In this document: piece after piece, positions 14,129-15,490 of the stretch
How the letters are laid out: every line of letters begins with the position of its first letter
How positions within the stretch are numbered: position 1 is the stretch's first letter
Origin: Candidatus Shapirobacteria bacterium
GTDB taxonomy: Bacteria > Patescibacteriota > Microgenomatia > UBA12405 > BS750m-G30
Direction of reading: 5' to 3'
Length of the DNA stretch: 34,701 bases
NCBI GenBank assembly: GCA_016783425.1
Contig: JADHWP010000004.1
Location: 1-34,701 of the forward strand
Position numbers and translations under genes: made by a program
Notes under the pieces: generated by a model
What the model saw: the letters and a program-made list of their open reading frames with translations, nothing else
Told to the model about the DNA's origin: nothing
The model's database searches: none

Positions 14129-14233
14129 CTGACTCATCTTGTTCACGATCGAAAACAAAACGAGTCATTGCCTATGACCCATTGGCAAACCCAAAAATTA
14201 ACATGTATTGATACATGTTAATTTTTCCCACCC
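14129..14233 (+). repeat. 105-bp structured direct repeat, copy 1
   Basis: ctgactcatcttgttcacgatcg...aaaaattaacatgtattgatacatgttaatttttcccaccc; ungapped 97/105 match to 15322-15426; 8 differences, all transitions. Confidence 0.97.
14193..14226. terminator. 34-nt perfect inverted repeat (16-bp arms, 2-nt loop), possible bidirectional terminator or binding site
   Basis: AAAAATTAACATGTAT-TG-ATACATGTTAATTTTT; A-run and T-run ends on both strands; lies downstream of rpsG and downstream of the antisense gene. Confidence 0.55.
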
Positions 14234-14322
14234 GCGGGGATGAGACATTCCCGAAATGTGAGAATTTACATTCCGGAAATGTTTTAGCGGCCGGGGCGTT
14301 TCCGAAGCGTTAAAGATTGGAA

Positions 14323-14350
14323 TGTTTTAATGTATCGATACATTAAAACA
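14323..14350. repeat. 28-bp perfect palindrome
   Basis: TGTTTTAATGTATCGATACATTAAAACA; core TGTATCGATACA resembles TGTATTGATACA in the two 105-bp repeats. Confidence 0.9.
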
Positions 14351-14392
14351 GTTTCAAAAGTCATCCTGATCCTGACTTTGCGTCGGGAGAAG

Positions 14393-14439
14393 AATTTAGC
14401 GAAGCTAGGTACAGTACTGCACCTAGCGAGGCGTAAATT
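14393..14439. repeat. Long imperfect inverted repeat (structured DNA/RNA)
   Basis: AATTTA-gcga-AGCTAGGTaCAGTACTGcACCTAGC-gaggcg-TAAATT; inner 24 nt (14404-14427) palindromic except one pair. Confidence 0.75.
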
Positions 14440-14474
14440 AACACGGGATTTTGAAAGTAGTTTTTGGTTAATTC

Positions 14475-15224
14475 TTACTCTGATTTTTTTGCAACCAAGA
14501 TTAAAACGTCATGAGCCCAGTCATGGGGGTTTGCCCTTAATTTATCGAAGTCAAAGCGGAGTGTATTCTCCATTAGTATTGAACGGATTACCCAACCCCT
14601 GCCGCTCATGGGTTCTTGCGTATTACCTGGAAGCGTTATATTTAAAAAAGGCGCTGTTTTATCATGTCTTATCTCTGTTTCAAGGTTTTGAATTACCTGC
14701 AAGCCTAATTTTGACATATCACCAGTGATAATAAAATGACCACCTGGTTTTAGGGCATCTGTAATAGCTCGAAGCAAAATAGTCCTTTTCTCTTTAGAAG
14801 TAACATCATCGGTATAAGCATTAAACATAGTTATTAAATCGAATTTGTCCTTGCCCAAGCTGGCTAAGGCCTGGGTGGGGTTTTTGGGAATAAATTTAAC
14901 CCCTGGTAGTTGATTTAGAGTATGTGGTTTCCCTCCGAAGAACCCTTCTGCTACTGTTAAAGATCTTGATTTCAATTGGTGAAAAACTACTGCTTCAGGG
15001 GCTGAGCTACCAACATCAAGACAACAGACATCTCCTGAAATGACTGATCGGTCTAGCCTGCCATCAATTACTAGTAATTCTAGTAATTCATATATCATTA
15101 ATGTTCTGTGAGCTGCGAGAGAGTTTTCACCAATCAGTCTTTTTGCTTCTTGTTTTATCGTCCCAGAGAAGGGAAATACTTTTCCTTCATCTGTTATAAC
15201 TTCAGCAGGGATAAAAAGTGACAT
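14475..15224 (-). CDS. Class I SAM-dependent methyltransferase-like protein
   Basis: 249 aa; motif I-like CCLDVGSSAPEA, FDLITMFNAYTDD, post-motif ALKPGGHFIITGD; opposite in strand to all neighbours. Confidence 0.7.
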   Translation of the reverse strand: MSLFIPAEVITDEGKVFPFSGTIKQEAKRLIGENSLAAHRTLMIYELLELLVIDGRLDRSVISGDVCCLDVGSSAPEAVVFHQLKSRSLTVAEGFFGGKPHTLNQLPGVKFIPKNPTQALASLGKDKFDLITMFNAYTDDVTSKEKRTILLRAITDALKPGGHFIITGDMSKLGLQVIQNLETEIRHDKTAPFLNITLPGNTQEPMSGRGWVIRSILMENTLRFDFDKLRANPHDWAHDVLILVAKKSE

Positions 15225-15286
15225 AGTCTAATTTTACCAATCCTTGGCAGGTTATACAAATTTTAAAAAATCCTAAAGCGCCCCTG

Positions 15287-15306
15287 AGTCCGCCAGCTGG
15301 CGGACT
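15287..15306. repeat. 20-bp perfect palindrome AGTCCGCCAGCTGGCGGACT
   Basis: Self-complementary; its 16-bp core TCCGCCAGCTGGCGGA recurs at 29710-29725 inside map. Confidence 0.95.
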
Positions 15307-15321
15307 ACCTGGGGTGCGGGG

Positions 15322-15426
15322 CTGACTCATCTTATTCACGATCGAAAACAAAATGAGTCATTGTCTATAACCCATCGGTAAGCCCAAAAATTAACATGTA
15401 TTGATACATGTTAATTTTTCTCACCC
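15322..15426 (+). repeat. 105-bp structured direct repeat, copy 2
   Basis: Ungapped 97/105 match to 14129-14233; contains the same 34-nt perfect inverted repeat at 15386-15419. Confidence 0.97.
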
Positions 15427-15452
15427 CTAAAGAGGAGTTTACTTGAAAACAT

Positions 15453-15490
15453 CCCCCGAGGAGTCAAAGCCCACCTCGGGGGAGTTTTAT
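15453..15490 (+). terminator. Intrinsic terminator upstream of fusA
   Basis: CCCCCGAGG (15453-15461), 12-nt loop, CCTCGGGGG (15474-15482), then agttttatt. Confidence 0.65.

Follow-up and report, generated by a model that had tools for sequence, protein, structure and literature searches.

An orphan gene among dispersed palindromic elements at the rpsG-fusA junction of a Candidatus Shapirobacteria genome, and a 34-nucleotide coding hairpin dispersed across its class

Introduction

Palindromic elements that lie in protein-coding genes have been described in Rickettsia (the RPE), Wolbachia, and Methanocaldococcus jannaschii, and have no known mover (PMC2229807). The RPE are 105 to 146 bp long, and their coding frame spans tens of residues (PMC2229807). 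Insertion into RNA genes is a further trait of coding palindromes. The REP, BIME, and REPIN elements, found with RAYT (Y1) transposases, are short dispersed hairpins arranged in mosaics (PMC2817692, PMC3116915). Here we compare with these systems an insert between rpsG and fusA in a Candidatus Shapirobacteria genome. The insert resembles integron cassettes and their attC sites in that a single gene lies beside imperfect hairpins and is surrounded by direct repeats. It differs from them in that the insert has no integrase ORF, there is no array, and the repeat brackets no gene elsewhere.

Results

Structure of the locus

The window (34,701 nucleotides) makes up an entire contig of a genome of 0.62 Mb, which is assembled in 33 contigs and is 90% complete. 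The initial annotation had described two ungapped 105-bp direct repeats (97/105 identical) that enclose palindromes and a single antisense gene in an otherwise collinear core operon block, with no visible transposase or integrase. This description was borne out: the repeats have a spacing of 1193, the block is rpoB-rpoC-rpsL-rpsG ... fusA-tuf, and the insert contains no second ORF of transposase or integrase size. The features of the insert and its immediate flank are as follows.

14129-14233, unstranded: 105-bp direct repeat, copy 1, made of the M1 hairpin, a 25-nt spacer, and the P1 palindrome; begins 11 nt past the rpsG stop codon
14130-14167, minus strand: M1 hairpin, 38 nt, fully paired on the minus strand only; this genome has five complete copies and a partial one
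14193-14226, unstranded: P1, an AT-rich palindrome whose two 16-nt arms are fully complementary; confined to the two 105-mers (own-genome search)
14245-14282, unstranded: M2, nested hairpin ACATTCCCGAAATGT...ACATTCCGGAAATGT; copies also on contigs C10 (two) and C18
14323-14350, unstranded: M3, perfect palindrome TGTTTTAATGTATCGATACATTAAAACA; C25 and C19 hold partial copies
14352-14437, unstranded: M4, 86-bp module; copy on C6, 85% identical
14475-15224, minus strand: orphan ORF, 249 aa, weakly methyltransferase-like, with foreign codon usage
15228-15288, minus strand: M5, dispersed module and candidate promoter; ends beside the ORF start
15281-15314, unstranded: M6, dispersed hairpin with a nested GTCCGCCAGCTGGCGGAC palindrome
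15322-15426, unstranded: 105-bp direct repeat, copy 2; on the left it runs directly into M6 and M5, an arrangement shared by the C8 copy
15323-15360, minus strand: M1 hairpin, second window copy
15386-15419, unstranded: P1 palindrome, second copy, identical
15451-15484, unstranded: M7, copy of a class-wide 34-nt hairpin element with loop AGTCAAAGCCCA, intergenic here

All eight differences between the 105-mers are transitions, and none falls in the 34-nt palindrome that they contain; because of these transitions, the two copies have evidently not been kept identical to each other.

The sister genome G001, the single family relative compared, lacks the insert: we directly observe an rpsG-fusA gap of about 53 bp there. 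Neither an empty site exact to the base nor a target duplication was seen. The initial annotation had held that its reading would fail if all relatives carried the gene and both repeats at this place; instead, the sister junction is short and the gene is absent from all 138 related genomes. In genus g3 the same interval holds a PP2C/SpoIIE-like gene in G002 and an NYN-domain gene in G011 (loci L046 and L055, downstream of rpsG in these two genomes). The junction is therefore open to gene turnover, and a special cassette is not needed to account for a gene there.

The orphan gene

The label of methyltransferase given by the initial annotation survives as a weak resemblance at most. Pfam Methyltransf_12 and Methyltransf_31 match at an E value of 0.014, below their gathering scores, and in the class I SAM methyltransferase profile test every methyltransferase profile scored under threshold. 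The motifs LDVGS and LKPGG are plausible class I motifs as judged by eye. A single-sequence AlphaFold model was unusable (mean pLDDT of 38), and weak matches to PADLOC mad2 and PHROG were given no weight. Beyond the 138 related genomes, no relative of the gene was found in 379 other genomes of the phylum sample or in genome contigs, viral contigs, phages, plasmids, or the PDB. Its codon-usage index is 0.588, far under the range of 0.70 to 0.77 of 19 neighboring genes. The gene is best read as a probable foreign acquisition.

Modules of the insert

Searching the genome with the insert as query directly demonstrated dispersal: much of the insert recurs elsewhere, and M2 to M7 are found again at other places and in other orders, such as M5-M6-M1 in a row on C8 and M7, M1, and M2 on C18. 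The initial annotation had considered that the 105-mer could be a dispersed repeat, and this held for a part of it. The first 38 to 46 nt are dispersed, but the full 105-mer has no third copy in the assembly. M1 was not found in the relatives or sequence collections searched, and its copies away from the window bracket no gene.

M1 forms its complete pairing on the window minus strand only (75/75 cells, versus 59/75 on the other strand), and as RNA the minus strand folds at -17 to -20 kcal/mol, versus -3 to -10 kcal/mol. Few independent changes lie behind this difference, so strand specificity is no more than suggested. A role for M1 as an intrinsic terminator was ruled out, as it has no T-run and three of its five copies lie upstream of a candidate promoter. 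A further hairpin family, CATAACTCATRACGATCGKCAYGAGTTATG, occurs downstream of M1 and M2 copies (L003 and L042) and shares with M1 the loop core ACGATCG. No Rfam family matched above gathering; matches to deltacoronavirus and HOTTIP families (E values of 0.06 to 0.3) were dismissed as chance.

Other copies of M5 read TTGAAT-17-TAAAAT on the minus strand and are sigma-70 promoter-like. M5 is thus a candidate promoter, from which transcription of the orphan gene would begin at its ATG; the window copy has a weak -35 and was not listed by the promoter scan. With its copies on C8, C9, C28, C10, and C4, M5 resembles a portable promoter module upstream of different genes.

M7, a hairpin family of the class

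The consensus of M7 is CACCT-NNNN-GG-AGTCAAAGCCCA-CC-N'N'N'N'-AGGTG, 34 nt in length. Of the 374 genomes of the class, 33 contain its loop pattern, and 17 close matches come from this genome; chance would produce about 1.2 matches in total, and the backward control gave 1. We read 46 distinct copies, 14 from this genome and 32 from elsewhere. The loop is common to the 46 copies with few changes, and the stem core is variable yet paired. The outer ends, CACCT...AGGTG, are mostly kept outside this genome, and the copies within it are more variable there. Covariation of the stem was observed directly: 96% of the cells are paired, and two-sided changes occur in 7 of 11 pairs, amounting to 43 cells versus 9.8 in shuffled alignments (0 of 500 shuffles as high), with at most 9 in the slid controls. 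No M7 was found in viruses or phages, and plasmids gave one partial match (E value of 0.3). The family was not described in the literature covered by a limited search, in which palindromic elements of CPR/Patescibacteria were considered at the level of titles and abstracts.

M7 is also directly observed in frame within protein genes. Outside this genome, 27 of the 32 copies lie within open frames that span 150 aa or more. The consensus is open in five of its six frames, and four are in use, giving the peptides TSEESKPTSEV, HLRGVKAHLGG, PPRSQSPPRR, and, reversed, TSEVGFDSSEV; once translated, the element is a loop of 11 to 12 residues. The host genes were recognized by profile or structure comparison. 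TsaD carries the element in frame at four loci, at two sites and in different frames. Other hosts elsewhere include AspRS, TatD, MurB, TrpRS, peptidase M24, IPP transferase (IPPT), a glycosyltransferase, TopA, RecG, and an ATP synthase gamma-like protein (AtpG). The TrpRS host (L100) had been considered as GapA, and that assignment was rejected. Two open frames with M7 (L040 and L104) have no profile match and are uncertain genes. In this genome, PcrA has an 11-residue extra loop at PTPEESKPTSGVL that corresponds to M7, and PBP2 holds the M7 peptide together with the peptide of a second palindrome. TsaD, AspRS, and MurB have each gained, in net terms, fewer residues than the 12 that the element encodes, indicating that host residues were also lost or replaced and that simple insertion alone is insufficient for these three proteins.

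Three of the TsaD ORFs (L115, L121, and L133) have, after ANWI, a second variable stretch whose DNA is of a different kind, repeat-like and partly palindromic, for example, GACTCTAGCGACTAGTC and CCGGCTTCGCCGG. This stretch suggests further families of coding palindromes.

A Y1 transposase gene flanked by a dispersed palindrome

The genome yielded one Y1_Tnp gene, a 231-aa frame on C6 (L079), and inverted copies of the GTCAACC palindrome (TGTCAACCTTWAAGGTTGACA) lie on both sides of it. This palindrome (L080 to L094) has 20 occurrences, most of them paired at a distance of 24 bp, and is confined to C6, C11, and C12. Some of its copies are in frame, in PBP2, a competence-family gene, and a regulator/acetyltransferase-like gene. 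A copy in the L10 ORF (L085) was dropped from the in-frame set, as it may precede the start codon. The Y1-flanking palindrome differs in sequence from M1, P1, and M7, and neither M1 nor M7 flanks the Y1 gene.

Discussion

Comparison with known systems

M7 has two properties of coding palindromes, dispersal in the genome and in-frame placement inside conserved protein genes. Like the RPE, it is dispersed palindromic DNA that is intergenic as well as in frame and is translated as an extra loop. Unlike the RPE, it comprises 34 nt and 11 to 12 residues, about a third of the RPE length and outside the RPE size range, and it combines a conserved loop with a freely covarying stem core, occurs in several families of the class, and uses four frames.

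The short hairpins in mosaics and the single Y1 gene between inverted palindromes, often paired 24 bp apart, are similar to REP elements and their RAYT genes (PMC2817692). The GTCAACC family has the RAYT arrangement (PMC2817692) together with insertion into coding genes. Unlike REP elements, M1, M7, and the Y1-flanking palindrome have no GTAG/GTGG head in the flanks and copies read. Copy number is low, placement in coding genes is frequent, and M1, P1, and M7 are unlinked to the Y1 gene. Because the only Y1 gene found in the genome is flanked by a dispersed palindrome that is also found in frame in genes, the Y1 (HUH) transposase is the leading candidate mover of the hairpin elements; for M1, P1, and M7, it is a candidate by analogy only.

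Origin of the insert

We consider it probable, at roughly 0.7, that the insert is an acquired orphan gene in a mosaic of dispersed palindromic elements and that the 105-mers are composites rather than the recombination sites of a cassette. The rpsG-fusA interval would have taken up the methyltransferase-like gene amid small dispersed palindromes of several families. The 105-bp repeat would be a composite of the M1 hairpin and the P1 palindrome, either duplicated or inserted twice. This agrees best with the simpler of the two alternatives in the initial annotation, a gene flanked on both sides by a dispersed REP-like repeat, with the qualification that the repeat is dispersed in part. The other alternative, a non-autonomous cassette in which RecA or a site-specific recombinase acting in trans excises or integrates a 1193-bp gene-carrying circle, would explain why direct repeats bracket one foreign gene and why the insert is missing from the sister genome, and a tyrosine recombinase-like ORF, recognized by eye, adjoins the C19 copy of M1 (L004; C19 1649-2665). 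However, with the 105-mer confined to its two copies, these copies 7.6% diverged by point transitions, M1 bracketing no gene elsewhere, and a second cassette in none of the 138 relatives, we regard excision between the repeats as distinctly improbable.

Some features of the hairpins would also fit host regulatory signals, with P1 and M7 as bidirectional terminators and M5 as a promoter, all multiplied for their usefulness at the boundaries of operons. The long stem of P1 is flanked by A-rich and then T-rich sequence, TTTTA directly follows the window copy of M7, the M5 consensus is promoter-like, and terminator-like sites number 6 versus 2.1 in shuffles. However, M7 is found within the coding genes of many families and in four reading frames, many of its copies in this genome are not beside a stop codon, and M1, which lacks a T-run, is situated upstream of the promoter candidate in three copies (copy 2, C8, and C19). 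We therefore find this explanation unlikely. Most M7 copies outside this genome sit in ORFs, as they would if the peptides were conserved protein features such as linkers and the likeness of the DNA followed from coding; but the same DNA is read in four frames and both orientations and is also intergenic, the stem covaries as DNA, and the host proteins are unrelated, which makes this explanation hardly credible.

Under the preferred reading of a gene within a palindrome mosaic, M7 is spread across families of the class, in intergenic positions as well as in the reading frames of conserved genes, with which it is translated, and the elements would have been copied in trans as single-stranded hairpins. 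A more far-reaching proposal is that minute hairpins of about 34 to 43 nt are copied throughout the class as single-stranded DNA by Y1 (HUH) enzymes acting in trans and inserted into genes as well as intergenic regions, with the loop and ends kept and the stem core renewed, leaving translated peptide loops in essential enzymes. We offer it tentatively and consider it rather unlikely as a whole.

Implications

M7 is a very small coding palindrome, RPE-like in its working, shorter and more widely spread. It is the part of this analysis that is of general interest, as it provides many separate insertions to study in very small bacterial genomes, and these insertions hit tRNA-modifying enzymes, synthetases, a topoisomerase, and cell-wall enzymes. 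The GTCAACC family beside the Y1 gene names a specific enzyme as candidate mover, and Y1 copying in trans, if true, would provide a first candidate mover for protein-coding palindromes. The findings are also a warning that proteins of such genomes may contain short foreign loops.
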